Part shown: one piece after another, positions 8,045 through 13,586 of the stretch | Layout of the letters: every line of letters starts with the position of its first letter | Position numbering within the stretch: the first letter of the stretch is position 1 | DNA from: Herpetosiphonaceae bacterium | GTDB taxonomy: Bacteria; Chloroflexota; Chloroflexia; Chloroflexales; Herpetosiphonaceae | Assembly (NCBI GenBank): GCA_013538855.1 | Contig: JABXJS010000214.1 | Coordinates: forward strand, 1-46,779 | Reading direction: 5' to 3' | Length of the DNA: 46,779 nucleotides | Translations under genes and position numbers: made by a program | Notes under the pieces: model-generated | What the model was told of the DNA's origin: nothing | Databases searched by the model: none | What the model saw: only the letters and a program-made list of their open reading frames with translations

Positions 8045-8072
8045 TTGCACAATTGCGCTGGTCTGGTATCAT
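8045..8072 (+). promoter_or_regulatory. Predicted sigma-70-type promoter of the aminopropyltransferase operon
   Basis: TTGCAC (8045-8050), a 16-base spacer and TATCAT (8067-8072) lie 78 bases before the ATG at 8150. Both hexamers match consensus well, in a region otherwise without a gene. GAGGAA before the ATG is the ribosome site. It likely drives all five genes up to the terminator at 13227-13266. Confidence 0.55.
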
Positions 8073-8149
8073 GGCGCGCAGCATCTGCAACCAAGCGCGG
8101 TCCTGGCGCGTACCAACCACCAGCCACATAACACACAACGAGGAACCCC

Positions 8150-10618
8150 ATGACGATAGTTCTCGACGAACGAGCCGACTCTTCTATCGCCGTGTACATC
8201 GATGGCGACTTGCAGTTCGATAGCCGCGATGAAGGTCTGTACCACGAGCTGCTGGCGCTGCCGGCGCTAGCGCTGGCGACCGCCCGCCGTAGCGCACGCG
8301 GCAAGCCCAAGCTGCGCGCCCTGATCTGCGGCGGCGGCGACGGCCTGGCCGCCCGCGAGCTGCTCAAATCCGCCGTGATCAGCCACGTCGATCTGGTCGA
8401 CTACGATGCGCAGATCATCGCGCTAGCTCGCGACGACTGGGCCGCGATCAACGGCCACGCGCTCAGCGATGCACGCCTGCACGTGCATGTTGAGGATGCA
8501 TTTCAGTTTGTTGATCGCGCCGCCCGCCTGCACCGCGCCTACGATCTGATCATCTGCGACTTCACCGTGCCCCGCGACAGCGCCGGCGCGCGCCTGCACA
8601 CGATCGAGTGGTACGGGCAGCTGCGCGCCATCCTGGCCGACACCGGCGTGCTGGCCGTCAACGCCGCCTCGCCCTCGCAGACGCCGCTGGCCTACTGGTC
8701 GATCTACAACAGCCTGCGCGCCGCCGAGCTGCACCCGCGCCCCTATCGCTTCGTGCTGCCCTCGTTCACCAACGCGGGCTATGGCGATGACTGGGGCTTC
8801 TTCATCGGCGCGGCCCGCCATCTGCGACCACGCGAGTTCAGCGAGCTGCGCTTTGCCGAGCCGCGGCAGTTTCTGCACTCCGCTGATCAGCTACGCCGCT
8901 GCTTCTGCTTTCCAAGCGCTATCGCCAAGCTGCGCGACAGCGCCCCGCCCACCAGCATGGGCAGCCTGTGGCTGCTGCAGGCGCTGTTCAACCCAACCTG
9001 GGAGGATGCCAGCGCCGTTGATTGGAGCGCGCTCGACTGGAGCCACGATCCCGCCGAGCTGCCCGCCACCGACAGCGCCGCCCCCGTGCTGCCGTATGCC
9101 GTGCGCGCCACCCTGCAGCAGGCCGAGCCAACGGTCTCGGAGACCGAGGTGTTCGAGCAGGTGATCGAGGTGATGCCTGCGCTGCGCGCCGACCAGACGC
9201 GCTCGATGATCCGTGAGTTTATCGACAACCCAGCGCGCTTCTTGAACACGCTTGATCTGCGCGCCATCGTCGATGCGCTGCTGCGGCGCGCCGCCGAGCT
9301 GCCACAGCGCCTGGTCGGCGAGCTGCGCCTGCTGCGCGCCAACCTGCGCCGCACGTGGAGCAACCCACACTCGCTGCTGCAGCGCGGCCTGCGCATCGTG
9401 TCGATTATTGCGATTGTGGTGATCCTCTCCAACATCATCCATCCCGATGCGGCCTACGGCAAGGGCAGCGTCGACGGCGGCACGACCAGCGGTGCCTACC
9501 AGAGCGGCTCGTTCGCACGCACCTCCAGCCCCTACGACGTGGTGGCTCCGCCGCCATCGACCGTCAGCGGGCCAGGCTTCGCGCCCAGCCGCTACGGCCG
9601 CGGCGTGGTCGTCGATGAGGTCGGCTCGTACTATCCAACCAGGCGCTATCGCTACTACCGCTCCTACTACGGCGGCTCAAGCTATCGCTCGTACTCGCGC
9701 CCAGCGCGGCCCGACGATCCCAACGAGGGCGAGGCGCTGTATCGACTGACGCCAGAGACAGACCTGCTGGCCAACGGCGAGATCGTGATCGCGCTCACCG
9801 ACCAGTCCTATCTGCTGCTGGCCGATCAGGTCACCAGCGTGGTCGATATCAACACCGGCCTGCCAATTATCTTCCTCCAGCGCGACCCGGCCCTGATCTG
9901 GCGCACGCACCAGGAGCTGAATCGCCAGCGCACCGGCCTGCGCGACAGCGTCAAGGGCAAGCAGGACTGGATCGACTGGATCAGCTGGATGGGCTTTGCG
10001 CCCTGGCGCGACGACGACGAGCGCGAGCTAGCCAACATGCAGAACACCGTCGATGTGGTCAACAAGGCCATCGCCAGCCTCGGCAGCGTCCCCGCCCAGC
10101 AGCCACCGGTGGCCGAGCCGCCGCTGAGCGGCAGCTACCAGCTCTTTACTGGCGTGTGGGTCACTGGCGATGGCAGCATGGCGATCATCCAGCGCGCCGA
10201 TGCCCAGCCGGCCTACCTTGATCGCAACGGCTGGTGGCTCGACCCTGGCCGCACCGCGCCGATCAGTGATCCCTACCCTGATGACCTGCGCAAGCTGGTG
10301 CTGGTGCCCTTCCTGACCAAGCTCGTCAACGAGTACGACGCGGTCAAAAAGAGCATCGAGTCCGATCTAGCCTCCGCGCGCCAAGACATGACCAGCCTGC
10401 AGAAGGACCTGGCCGAGTACACGCAGATCCAGAAAACCTACGGCCCGAGCGACACTGTTGAGTACGGCTCGTCGGAGATCTCGGTGAGCCAGGCGCTGCA
10501 GCTGACCAACGCCGATATCGGGCGCACCGATCAGTTGATCAGCGTGCTGCAGCAGCGGGTCGATCAGCTGCCCAAGCAGCACGAGGCCGCGCAGAAGCTG
10601 CTGGCCGTGCTGCGCTAG
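8150..10618 (+). CDS. Spermidine-synthase-like domain fused to membrane and coiled-coil region
   Basis: An 822-residue fusion. Residues 1-230 form an aminopropyltransferase (PABS) domain: YHELLALPAL (31-40), the nucleotide loop GGGDG (61-65), VDYD (83-86), EDAFQF with Asp116, and DLIICDFTVPRD with the putative catalytic Asp137. Typical spermidine synthases end near residue 290. Here a helical region (300-405) follows, then one transmembrane helix (about 412-432), a Gly/Ser- and Tyr/Arg-rich stretch (YYPTRRYRYYRSYYGGSSYR, about 494-513), a folded domain of unknown type and a C-terminal coiled coil (about 728-821). The synthase half should be cytoplasmic and the rest exported. The domain probably transfers an aminopropyl group from decarboxylated AdoMet, but the acceptor is unknown. 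It is the first gene of a five-gene operon that includes a DUF350 protein. Confidence 0.9.
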   Translation: MTIVLDERADSSIAVYIDGDLQFDSRDEGLYHELLALPALALATARRSARGKPKLRALICGGGDGLAARELLKSAVISHVDLVDYDAQIIALARDDWAAINGHALSDARLHVHVEDAFQFVDRAARLHRAYDLIICDFTVPRDSAGARLHTIEWYGQLRAILADTGVLAVNAASPSQTPLAYWSIYNSLRAAELHPRPYRFVLPSFTNAGYGDDWGFFIGAARHLRPREFSELRFAEPRQFLHSADQLRRCFCFPSAIAKLRDSAPPTSMGSLWLLQALFNPTWEDASAVDWSALDWSHDPAELPATDSAAPVLPYAVRATLQQAEPTVSETEVFEQVIEVMPALRADQTRSMIREFIDNPARFLNTLDLRAIVDALLRRAAELPQRLVGELRLLRANLRRTWSNPHSLLQRGLRIVSIIAIVVILSNIIHPDAAYGKGSVDGGTTSGAYQSGSFARTSSPYDVVAPPPSTVSGPGFAPSRYGRGVVVDEVGSYYPTRRYRYYRSYYGGSSYRSYSRPARPDDPNEGEALYRLTPETDLLANGEIVIALTDQSYLLLADQVTSVVDINTGLPIIFLQRDPALIWRTHQELNRQRTGLRDSVKGKQDWIDWISWMGFAPWRDDDERELANMQNTVDVVNKAIASLGSVPAQQPPVAEPPLSGSYQLFTGVWVTGDGSMAIIQRADAQPAYLDRNGWWLDPGRTAPISDPYPDDLRKLVLVPFLTKLVNEYDAVKKSIESDLASARQDMTSLQKDLAEYTQIQKTYGPSDTVEYGSSEISVSQALQLTNADIGRTDQLISVLQQRVDQLPKQHEAAQKLLAVLR

Positions 10619-10633
10619 CGCCTGCTGAGATTG

Positions 10634-11668
10634 ATGATGCAGCTCTCTGTTCAACAGCTTGATGATCTGCGTCCTGACGCTGGCCTCGGCTGGCGCTGGG
10701 AGCAGCTGGTGCAGGCGGCACCAGCCAGCGGCCTGATGCAGTCGCTGCACTGGGCCGCCTTCAAGCGCACCCGTGGCCTACGCGTGCTGCACCTCGGCCT
10801 GTTCGCTGCCGACGAGCTGATCGGAGGCGCGCTGCTGTATGCGCCTGCCACAGCTCAGCCTGCCAGCCTGCTGATTGCGCCGGAGGGGCCGGTGCTGCCG
10901 TGGGAGCAGCCGGAGATCGCACGAGCGGGCCTGCGCCTGCTGCGTAGCGCCGCCCTGGAGCGTGCTAGCAAGTACGCCGCCGTCGGCATGCGCATCGAGC
11001 CGCTGCTGCCCACCCCACGGCCGCCGCTGCTGCGCGACTGGGGCCGCGCTCCGGTTGATCTGCTGGCGCGCGAGACGCTGCTGCTTGACCTCACGCAGTC
11101 CGAGGCGGAGCTGCTGGCGGCGATGCGGCCGAAGTGCCGCTACAATATTCGCCTGGCTGAGCGCCACGGCGTTCATGTGCGCAGCTCAACCGCCGAGCAC
11201 GATATTCCACTGTTCTACGCCCTACTCGATGAGGCTGGCGAGCGTGACGATTTTTATGTCGAGCCAATTGACCACTTCAGCGATCTGCTGCGCATGCTCG
11301 CCCCGCACGGGCTGGCGCGGCTGCTGATCGCCGAGTATGCGGGCGCGGCGCTGGGCGCGCTGCTGCTGACCACCTACGGCCAGCGCGCGGTGTACCTGTA
11401 TGGCGGCACCGCCACCAGCGAGCGCAACAAGATGGCCGGCTACGCGCTCCAGTGGGCCGCGATCACCAGCGCCAAGGCGGCAGGCTGCGCCAGCTACGAC
11501 TTCTATGGCTACGATGCCAGCGGCAACCCGCAGCACCAGTACGCCAATTTCTCGCGCTTCAAGCGCGGCTTTGGCGGCACGCCGCGCACATTCATCGGCG
11601 CACACGATTTTTACTGGCCCGACCGGCTCGCCGACGCCGTGGTGCGGGCCGTTCATGCACTACGCTAG
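10634..11668 (+). CDS. FemAB-like aminoacyl/acyl transferase (GNAT fold)
   Basis: About 344 residues with the tandem-GNAT plan of the FemAB/FemX family, which adds amino acids from aminoacyl-tRNA to peptidoglycan precursors or, in relatives, forms other amide bonds. Recognisable parts are SLHWAAFKRTRGLRV near residue 40, MRPKCRYNIRLAERHGV (the family's R-YNIR-A core, near 165), YLYGGTATSERNKMAGYALQ and the terminal YDFYGYDASGNP with FSRFKRGFGG. Three possible starts lie in a row (TTG 10631, ATG 10634, ATG 10637) with only a weak ribosome site, so translation is probably coupled to the preceding gene 15 bases away. In this operon it may act as an amide ligase on a polyamine or on a peptide rather than in wall synthesis. 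Confidence 0.88.
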   Translation: MMQLSVQQLDDLRPDAGLGWRWEQLVQAAPASGLMQSLHWAAFKRTRGLRVLHLGLFAADELIGGALLYAPATAQPASLLIAPEGPVLPWEQPEIARAGLRLLRSAALERASKYAAVGMRIEPLLPTPRPPLLRDWGRAPVDLLARETLLLDLTQSEAELLAAMRPKCRYNIRLAERHGVHVRSSTAEHDIPLFYALLDEAGERDDFYVEPIDHFSDLLRMLAPHGLARLLIAEYAGAALGALLLTTYGQRAVYLYGGTATSERNKMAGYALQWAAITSAKAAGCASYDFYGYDASGNPQHQYANFSRFKRGFGGTPRTFIGAHDFYWPDRLADAVVRAVHALR

Positions 11669-11674
11669 TTCATG

Positions 11675-11695
11675 GCCTGCTGCACGCCAGCAGGC
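11675..11695 (+). other. Small hairpin before the next gene
   Basis: GCCTGCTG (11675-11682) pairs with CAGCAGGC (11688-11695) around a five-base loop, between the FemAB stop and the AAGGAGG of the next gene. With no T-run it is unlikely to terminate; it may be an mRNA processing or stability element. Confidence 0.35.
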
Positions 11696-11715
11696 ACCTG
11701 TGCTAAGGAGGCTTT

Positions 11716-12087
11716 ATGTCACAGCCGCGCTTTGGGCGCATACCCCCCAACACCTCGCAGCTGGTCGCGGGCATTGTTCAGACCATCACCGGGCAGGTTG
11801 TCAGCGCCCTGCCGCCGCACGCCGGCCCCAACACACGCGCCGCCGCGTCCGAGATCATCATCGGCATCGTGCTGCGCGACTGGCGCGAGAACGAGAACAC
11901 CTCGGGACTGCTGCCGGATGATGTCGCCGACCTACGCTCGTTTGTGCAGCTTGCCGCCACCCTGGCCGGCAACGACCTTGAAAACCAAGGTCTGCCGGTG
12001 TTCCGCTCGGTGCTCACCGGGCTGATGGAGGACTGGCTCGAGAACTGGAACGCACCTGGCGATCCTGGCCCGCCTGGACCCTACTAG
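11716..12087 (+). CDS. Small protein made of an uncharacterised domain (soluble copy)
   Basis: A 123-residue soluble protein with a strong AAGGAGG before its ATG. It has no signal peptide or membrane segment. Its whole length matches the C-terminal 120 residues of the membrane protein at 12368-13204. The shared positions are GRIPPxT at the start, I-x-x-DW-x-x-NEN-x-x-GL-x-P-x-D in the middle, DL-x-x-FVQLA, and a final VF-x-x-VL-x-GLM-x-DW-x-x-x-WN. The invariant Asp-Trp and Asn-Glu-Asn patterns suggest a folded, mostly helical domain. It ends in a short Gly/Pro tail. I do not recognise the family. The operon context suggests a partner of the aminopropyltransferase and FemAB-like enzymes. Confidence 0.8.
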   Translation: MSQPRFGRIPPNTSQLVAGIVQTITGQVVSALPPHAGPNTRAAASEIIIGIVLRDWRENENTSGLLPDDVADLRSFVQLAATLAGNDLENQGLPVFRSVLTGLMEDWLENWNAPGDPGPPGPY

Positions 12088-12141
12088 GCGGCGCACCAAC
12101 GCAATCAACGCTCTTCGCTTTGTACTATTTCAGGAGTGTGT

Positions 12142-12366
12142 ATGACCACAGATGAAATTTTGACGATCCTTGGGCGCGTCGCCGCCTCGGTGGGCTGGAC
12201 TGTCGTCAGCGTGCTGATCTTCTACGGCGGCGCGCGCCTGTATGACCTGCTTGACCCGATTGACTACCGCGCCGAGATCGAGCGCGGCAATGTGGCTGCG
12301 GGCATCAAGATGGCGGCGGTAACGCTGGCGCTGGCGGCAATTGTGATTATGGCTGTGGCGACCTAA
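12142..12366 (+). CDS. DUF350 (UPF0719-like) small membrane protein
   Basis: A 74-residue protein with two transmembrane helices (about residues 12-30 and 52-73). Between them is the DUF350 signature: DPIDYRAEIERGNVAAGI, then a small-residue-rich second helix. The frame extends to GTG 12136, but that codon overlaps the AGGAG ribosome site, so the ATG at 12142 is the better start. DUF350 proteins include YjfL, whose gene family occurs with polyamine-synthase-like and ligase genes in other bacteria; their molecular role is not known. This copy is half the length of the usual two-repeat DUF350 proteins. The next gene begins one base after its stop. Confidence 0.85.
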   Translation: MTTDEILTILGRVAASVGWTVVSVLIFYGGARLYDLLDPIDYRAEIERGNVAAGIKMAAVTLALAAIVIMAVAT

Positions 12367-12367
12367 A

Positions 12368-13204
12368 ATGCAAGCTCTATCCAAAACTCAACGGCTGACG
12401 CTCAACACGCTGGTGTTTTGGATTGGCGGCGCAGGCGCGCAGTTTCTCACGCTGTGGGCTTTAAGCCTCTTTTTCAGCAAAGATCGCGTCGCCGATGGCG
12501 GCGTGGCCACCACGGTGCTCATCGCCACCGTCATCGCGGCAACCTTCCTCTGGTACGTGCTCAAGCGCTTTTTCTTGGGCACGACGGCCTGTATGCTGGC
12601 GGTGCTGTGGTGGAGCAGCTGCTTTGTGGTTACGCTGCTGGCTGCGGCCTTCTTCAGTGCCGAGAAGGGCATGCCGCTGGTGGCCTACTTGCTGATCTGG
12701 CTACTTGTCGGGCTGCTCGCCGCTTTTGCTACGCGCACATCGGCGGGCTTCCAGCGCAGAGTCGCCGCCGGGGCTGCCGCCGCCGGAGCCGGGGCCTACG
12801 TGGCCACACGCCAGCAGCAGACGGTCATGAAAAGCTCTGGCTATGGCCGCATCCCACCAGCCACGGTTATCCTGCTCTCGCAGCACGTGCGCACCGCCAA
12901 CAACGCCGCCAACCGCCTGCCGCAGCAAGTCTCGCCGCCCTTCCGCACCGCCGCCATCGGCATTGTGCTCGACTACCTCGTCAAGGACTGGTGGTACAAC
13001 GAGAATCGTGAGGGGCTGACGCCCACCGACGAGGGCGACCTCGGCGCGTTTGTCCAGCTGGCCTGGAGCGTCTGTCGCGTCGGCCCGCAGTCCGCCGAGG
13101 AGGCCGTCGGCGTGTTCAAAGCCGTGCTCAACGGCCTCATGGACGACTGGTTCCAGTCTTGGAACGACGAGGTCGATGGCGCGCCACGCTGGCAGTATTC
13201 CTAA
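12368..13204 (+). CDS. Membrane-anchored copy of the uncharacterised domain
   Basis: A 278-residue protein with four hydrophobic helices in residues 13-130 (the clearest are about 15-35, 45-62, 66-95 and 100-120). An Ala/Gly-rich linker follows, then a C-terminal domain (about 158-273) homologous to the whole of the 11716-12087 protein, with YGRIPP, VKDWWYNENREGL, FVQLA and GLMDDWFQSWN. Its ATG follows the DUF350 stop by one base without a separate ribosome site, so translation is coupled. The domain should lie on one face of the membrane, probably the cytoplasm, near the DUF350 protein. The pairing of soluble and tethered forms suggests homo- or heteromeric assembly. Family unknown. Confidence 0.82.
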   Translation: MQALSKTQRLTLNTLVFWIGGAGAQFLTLWALSLFFSKDRVADGGVATTVLIATVIAATFLWYVLKRFFLGTTACMLAVLWWSSCFVVTLLAAAFFSAEKGMPLVAYLLIWLLVGLLAAFATRTSAGFQRRVAAGAAAAGAGAYVATRQQQTVMKSSGYGRIPPATVILLSQHVRTANNAANRLPQQVSPPFRTAAIGIVLDYLVKDWWYNENREGLTPTDEGDLGAFVQLAWSVCRVGPQSAEEAVGVFKAVLNGLMDDWFQSWNDEVDGAPRWQYS

Positions 13205-13226
13205 AACACCACAATCTCCATCCATC

Positions 13227-13266
13227 AAAAATGCCGCCCTGAAGCTTCCAGGGCGGCATTTTTTTG
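13227..13266 (+). terminator. Strong intrinsic terminator
   Basis: AATGCCGCCCTG pairs with CAGGGCGGCATT, with A-run and T-run flanks extending the stem and seven T bases on the exit side. It begins 22 bases after the last gene of the aminopropyltransferase operon and ends it. Confidence 0.93.
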
Positions 13267-13352: not shown

Positions 13353-13586
13353 ATGAACATACCAGTGGTACCCTGTTCAGCCTGCCATGGCAGCGGCCAG
13401 CAAACCTGTCCCGTCTGTGGCGGCAGCGGACGGCAGCGGGTACGTGGCGTTCCAGCACCGCTTTCCAGCGGGTTCGAGCGCCTTAACCCGGCATGTCCGC
13501 GCTGCACACCAGCCGGGGCGCGCCAAGGCAGCGGCCAAGTGCGCTGCCCAGTCTGTCGTGGCAGAGGCACGCTGGGTAAGCCGTAG
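13353..13586 (+). CDS. Stand-alone DnaJ-type cysteine-rich zinc-finger protein
   Basis: A 77-residue protein with four CxxC motifs in the DnaJ central-domain pattern: [24 protein letters not shown] and CPVCRGRG. These should bind two zinc ions. There is no J domain, no substrate-binding domain and no signal peptide. Free-standing proteins of this kind occur as small chaperone- or redox-like accessories, but no specific role can be assigned. The ribosome site is AAGGAG. The antiporter gene starts 20 bases after its stop, so the two are probably co-transcribed, and a role in antiporter assembly or regulation is conceivable. Confidence 0.82.

Follow-up and report, generated by a model that had tools for sequence, protein, structure and literature searches.

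A conserved five-gene operon pairs a membrane-tethered aminopropyltransferase-like protein with a FemAB-type enzyme, a half-size DUF350 protein and a new four-helix domain

Results

Five genes in one compact unit

We analysed a 46,779-nucleotide stretch of DNA from Herpetosiphonaceae bacterium (contig JABXJS010000214.1 of assembly GCA_013538855.1), hereafter the window, in which an operon combines polyamine-type and amide-forming enzymes with membrane proteins. An open reading frame (ORF) scan placed five ORFs, g1 to g5, on the plus strand within 8150-13204 (Table 1). They encode a PABS-domain protein with a membrane anchor, a FemAB-type enzyme, a small soluble protein, a DUF350 protein and a membrane protein whose C-terminus resembles g3. 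Two starts are available for g2 (10631 or 10634) and for g4 (12136 or 12142). The intergenic gaps measure 12, 47, 48 and 1 bases, and not 1-97 as a first-pass annotation of the sequence had it.

That annotation described a single-strand operon with one promoter and one strong terminator. We confirmed the five genes with their domains, including the one common to g3 and g5, as well as the terminator; the promoter is the sole weak element. The scan reports one promoter-like site of chance level at 12341-12369, directly 5' of g5. The unit is not visibly split by internal promoters, although there is still room for them. What shows the unity of the operon is the gene order, kept with tight gaps over two phyla, rather than the promoter.

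Table 1 Features of the operon, by position in the window (pLDDT, predicted local distance difference test; pTM, predicted template modelling score)
Feature	Position	Strand	Basis
Weak promoter-like site, TTGCAC-16-TATCAT	8045..8072	+	8/12 consensus positions; below scan threshold (omitted by the scan)
g1, putative PABS aminopropyltransferase, helical region, one transmembrane helix, Gly/Tyr-rich linker, ectodomain, 822 aa	8150..10618	+	PF01564; GGGDG and IICDFTVP motifs
g1 transmembrane helix, residues ~411-435, Arg-rich N side	9380..9454	+	Hydropathy; kept across the family
g1 predicted ectodomain, two beta units and long coiled-coil helices	9737..10615	+	AlphaFold2, pLDDT 90, pTM 0.73
g2, FemAB-type (double GNAT) aminoacyltransferase, 344 aa	10634..11668	+	PF02388; PDB matches to FemX/FemA
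g3, soluble copy of the new domain, four-helix bundle, 123 aa	11716..12087	+	No Pfam/NCBIfam family; model pLDDT 86; homologues
g4, half-size DUF350, two transmembrane helices, 74 aa	12142..12366	+	PF03994, residues 14-75
g5, N-terminal membrane region (3-4 transmembrane helices) and C-terminal new domain, 278 aa	12368..13204	+	Hydropathy; similarity to g3
New-domain copy inside g5	12827..13198	+	tblastn with g3, 1.4e-22
Intrinsic terminator	13227..13263	+	15-bp stem, -25.7 kcal/mol, z = -5.92, T run

Gene order is kept across two phyla

Two queries, g3 and a profile built on the C-terminal half of g1, were run separately against 400 Chloroflexota genomes. Both matched the same eight, namely that of the window, six from a sister genus within its family (the Herpetosiphon group) and one from another family of the order (G016). 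The order g1-g2-g3-g4-g5 is found in the six Herpetosiphon-group genomes and in G016. When 84,980 species were scanned for the new domain, the matches were four Herpetosiphon species, five Cyanobacteriota metagenome-assembled genomes (MAGs), several of them labelled Obscuribacterales, and one Chloroflexi MAG. By tblastn, the complete order is present in the window, at two further loci (L038, L044) and at a MAG locus (L054). L053 keeps the five-gene order with a divergent g5, L055 and L133 keep the operon order without DUF350, and L058, located at a contig edge, carries g2-g5. The Cyanobacteriota MAGs with the five-gene order are Vampirovibrionia-like, and some of them have no DUF350. Homologues of g3 thus co-occur with DUF350, PABS and FemAB genes in both phyla, in conserved order, and not scattered in the way that would have spoken against the first-pass annotation.

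FemAB is the next gene downstream of a g1-type PABS in every locus whose downstream DNA was read (23/23). These loci include smaller operons of g1, FemAB and speD (L103, L111) and cyanobacterial DUF4178-PABS-FemAB clusters; g1-FemAB pairs also stand alone (L104, L106). True cyanobacteria carry DUF4178-PABS-FemAB-DUF350 clusters; most have DUF350, and L136 has none at this place. The g1-FemAB pair is the invariant core of these loci, to which DUF350, DUF4178 and the pair of new-domain proteins are added in some loci and not in others. Some Obscuribacterales-type genomes hold two g1-FemAB units, with and without the new-domain module (L103 and L104 versus L054 and L055; G421, G422). An MscS-type channel gene lies 5' of the cyanobacterial cluster at L134:5171-6178, by Pfam match, and a similar ORF is seen at L138:10470-11516.

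g1 keeps the donor site and loses an acceptor-site aspartate

Residues 56-211 of g1 match PF01564 Spermine_synth in Pfam (5e-20, 72 bits against a cut-off of 22.9), and the top NCBIfam match, PRK03612, covers the spermidine synthase (SpdSyn) part. A phmmer search of PDB chains confirmed the PABS domain and found nothing further. As the first-pass annotation stated, the synthase is tethered to the membrane, by one transmembrane helix C-terminal to the synthase domain. The model of the predicted ectodomain gave no match at E<=0.001 in a PDB fold search, which returned just generic helical bundles and coiled coils. The g1 family is present in Chloroflexota and Cyanobacteriota; one homologue of 671 aa (L103:8633-10648) has a much shorter ectodomain, its first beta/coiled-coil unit being largely gone.

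We examined the active-site residues in 15 g1-type PABS sequences. All 15 keep the donor motif GGGDG, the Tyr of the DE..YHE stretch and the catalytic Asp (Asp137 in g1); in human spermidine synthase, Asp173 acts as the base (PMC12812037). In contrast, the second Asp of the D-x-x-D motif is replaced by V, C, S, Y, L or W in all 15, which read D[FL]T[VSWLCY] at the place where spermidine synthases have it, whereas relatives of the major facilitator superfamily (MFS) type read DLPDP and retain it in 8/8 sequences whose motif was found. Since this acceptor-site Asp is lost, ordinary spermidine synthesis is unlikely for g1, and by this criterion we do not class g1 as a spermidine synthase proper. 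The retained donor motif and base Asp, together with the lost second Asp, suggest that g1 is a working aminopropyltransferase whose acceptor has changed; the motif is unlike that of a dead enzyme, an outcome which the first-pass annotation had allowed for.

The FemAB of the operon belongs to a clade of its own

g2 matches PF02388 FemAB in Pfam (4e-32, 112 bits against a cut-off of 24), and a phmmer search of PDB chains led to FemX/FemA and nothing beyond. A Phe-Lys pair (F310-K311, numbering g2 from 10631) is invariant in 11/11 sequences and aligns with Lys305 of FemX, its catalytic Lys (PMC12945691). Aminoacyl-tRNA is expected to be the donor. A tree groups the FemABs of the operons in one clade (100/100), away from the separate FemABs of Herpetosiphon (G007) and of G016. 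The window genome has a second FemAB, which adjoins murE (MurE being named from its sequence). We considered g2 as a housekeeping peptidoglycan enzyme and rejected this on account of the second FemAB by murE and the separate clade. Distances among g1 and FemAB proteins correlate (r = 0.90), which shared species history would also produce and which we do not use as proof.

g3 and g5 share a new domain, and g4 is half a DUF350

The first-pass annotation had noticed an unrecognised domain in two proteins. Indeed, g3 and the C-terminus of g5 are 39% identical (1e-21, far beyond chance), and neither g3 nor g5 has a family in Pfam or NCBIfam. A RiPP-like (ribosomally synthesized and post-translationally modified peptide) NCBIfam match on g3, at E 0.035 and below the cut-off, was taken as chance. 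The model of the domain has four helices (11-31, 38-59, 67-84 and 93-111), and its PDB fold search likewise stayed without a match at E<=0.001, the structures returned being generic helical bundles and coiled coils. The invariant residues are D55-W56, N61, D69, D72, F76, W107, W111 and N112, and g3 ends in a conserved Pro/Gly-rich tail (GDPGPPGP). A g3/g5-like pair stands alone, with no adjoining PABS, FemAB or DUF350, at L056:9001-10092 and L057:9001-10093; at L056, MBOAT and DltD/GDSL-like genes lie 3' of the pair, and a cyclase-epimerase gene diverges from it. This hints that the pair may serve other envelope systems.

g4 matches the first half only of the PF03994 DUF350 profile (6e-10, Pfam). 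It is the sole DUF350 of the window genome. Among genomes with the five-gene type of operon, G000, G007, G016, G420 and G421 each have exactly one DUF350, that of the operon; G422 and G424 have none. Just past the terminator, at 13353-13586, lies a gene for a 77-aa CXXCXGXG zinc-ribbon protein, DnaJ central-domain or anti-TRAP-like, with matches below the cut-off.

S-adenosylmethionine decarboxylase is part of the unit in relatives

In seven genomes (the Herpetosiphon group and G016), speD lies directly 3' of g5, and it is the only S-adenosylmethionine (AdoMet) decarboxylase (AdoMetDC) gene in each of them. Cyanobacterial DUF4178-PABS-FemAB clusters have an adjoining AdoMetDC gene at L134, L135, L137 and L138. 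AdoMetDC is thus part of the unit in relatives. At L134, L137 and L138 an AdoMetDC-like gene, of uncertain activity by its sequence, is on the opposite strand, with about 37% identity to the Chloroflexota operon type. The operon SpeDs keep the equivalents of the Thermotoga maritima processing residues Ser63, His68 and Cys83 (PMC10407285), as well as a Pro in the HTYPE stretch. They are putative AdoMet decarboxylases, although homologues with other substrates exist. The only AdoMetDC of the window genome is found on contig C266, in a speD-speE pair whose PABS protein retains both Asp residues.

Discussion

A proposed membrane-bound two-step pathway

Our preferred reading, to which we give about half of our confidence, is that the five genes specify a modification pathway of two steps, bound to the membrane. 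It would be a FemAB-linked branch of the AdoMetDC/SpdSyn-like/DUF350 systems with 'polyamine-independent' AdoMetDC. SpeD, encoded in the operon in relatives and at the separate speD-speE locus in the window genome, would supply decarboxylated AdoMet. From this donor, the PABS domain of g1, on the cytoplasmic side and held by its one helix, would pass on the aminopropyl group at the inner membrane face. The acceptor would not be putrescine but probably a molecule of the membrane or envelope. Before or after this transfer, g2 would form an amide with an amino acid from aminoacyl-tRNA, plausibly on the new primary amine. DUF350 and g5 may together handle the product at the membrane, by moving, gating or sensing it, with g3 as the soluble partner of g5, and the g1 ectodomain would act outside the membrane.

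Several points weigh against this pathway. The operon in the window has no speD of its own, and some SpeD homologues decarboxylate ornithine or arginine rather than AdoMet (PMC10407285). The action of FemAB on the g1 product is read from adjacency, and FemAB-fold enzymes may use donors other than aminoacyl-tRNA. What the analysis shows is gene content, conserved order, motifs, folds and the link to AdoMetDC, from which we infer catalysis, the sequence of the two transfers, the acceptor, the transport role and the envelope function. DUF350 and the new domains are missing from several g1-FemAB loci (L103, L104, L106) and are thus accessory.

We weighed three other explanations. In the first, g1 is a membrane-tethered synthase of spermidine or another polyamine, the main one in Herpetosiphon, and free polyamines are the substrates of FemAB and the other proteins, which would make, for instance, aminoacyl-polyamines for storage, export or stress, with no envelope acceptor. 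In Herpetosiphon, the genome indeed has no AdoMetDC outside the operon, and its best PABS is there as well. Human spermine synthase also has no second Asp, and its loss is compatible with another amine as acceptor. We nevertheless consider this explanation unlikely, given that the Asp is lost in all g1-type sequences and kept in the MFS-type relatives, and that the window genome has its separate speD-speE pair with both Asp residues. Moreover, a soluble product needs neither a membrane anchor nor an ectodomain, and the MFS-type relatives are reported not to replace SpeE (Li et al. 2019, Biochem J).

In the second, the operon is an envelope-stress sensor or ion-channel module, in which DUF350 and g5 form the channel or sensor and the enzymes add aminopropyl and aminoacyl groups to the g3/g5 domains or to the GDPGPPGP tail. 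The link of DUF350 systems to PspA envelope stress genes (PMC11237479), the conserved tail of g3 and the MscS-like gene near the cluster in two cyanobacteria are in its favour. However, g1-FemAB units occur without DUF350, g3 and g5, so these cannot be the general substrate, and no modification site is evident in the sequences, which makes the module improbable. The third explanation, with FemAB as an envelope (peptidoglycan) aminoacyltransferase and PABS as a regulator or membrane partner that senses decarboxylated AdoMet or polyamines, with no joint product, has the least probability of the three: the FemAB family is classically one of peptidoglycan enzymes, and the PABS has an unusual ectodomain and a lost acceptor-site residue, but a separate FemAB lies by murE, the operon FemABs are their own clade, the invariant catalytic Asp and donor motif are unlike a pure sensor, and relatives have speD joined to the unit.

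Within the two-step pathway, we put forward only tentatively, and hold rather doubtful, the specific proposal that decarboxylated AdoMet chemistry and tRNA-dependent aminoacyl transfer act on one membrane-linked acceptor in Chloroflexota and Cyanobacteriota, which would yield an aminoacyl-aminopropyl lipid or envelope polymer, with the new four-helix domain family in a structural or regulatory role. The operon suggests an undescribed route to decorating the cell envelope with amine-bearing groups. It also bears on the role of 'polyamine-independent' AdoMet decarboxylases and SpdSyn-like membrane proteins: the same chemistry is here tied to a FemAB-type enzyme in each locus read. The pathway also predicts a product class, an aminopropyl group bearing an aminoacyl amide, which can be searched for by mass in Herpetosiphon, for which complete genomes exist, and in cyanobacteria.

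Comparison with known systems

Known operons join an SpdSyn-like domain, fused to an N-terminal seven-transmembrane (7TM) region, with DUF350, DUF4178 and a CesT/Tir-PspA dyad, while in others DUF350 accompanies an ATP-grasp of the GspS type, and variants of these also have AdoMetDC (PMC11237479). The first-pass annotation, which placed DUF350 beside spermidine-synthase-like and ligase genes, was right in substance; it also rightly saw that FemAB stands where DUF350 systems carry their ligase. Its interpretation as a whole is supported in part, the making or attachment of a polyamine-like group being a putative function. FemAB is unmentioned in PMC11237479, and our literature search found no paper with both 'FemAB' and 'spermidine synthase', although Li 2019 and the amidoligase survey lay outside the search and an earlier mention is possible.

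The operon works like the AdoMetDC/SpdSyn-like/DUF350 systems yet fails several of their defining features. With the AdoMetDC/MFS-SpdSyn-like/DUF350 clusters it has in common the membrane-linked SpdSyn-like domain and DUF350; its relatives also share AdoMetDC, and the cyanobacterial form shares DUF4178. Unlike them, g1 starts at the SpdSyn domain, with no N-terminal 7TM/MFS region, and has its transmembrane helix C-terminally; the five-gene form has an ectodomain, a half-size DUF350 and the new four-helix domain in two proteins; FemAB is always there and the second active-site Asp is lost; and none of the five window genes is PspA, CesT or DUF4178 by Pfam. The GspS-type ATP-grasp/DUF350/DUF1190/DUF2491 operons (yjf family; PMC11237479) likewise place DUF350 together with polyamine-type genes and a ligase that forms amides. 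In the present operon, however, the ligase is a FemAB of GNAT fold, with no ATP-grasp match in the five genes (Pfam), PABS lies within the operon, and DUF1190 and DUF2491 are absent. Finally, g2 resembles the FemABX aminoacyltransferases (FemX, FemA, DhpH-C, VlmA; PMC12945691) in its fold family and in the Phe-Lys of FemX Lys305, but the FemABs of the operons make up a separate clade, whose genetic link is to an aminopropyltransferase and not to murein or antibiotic genes.

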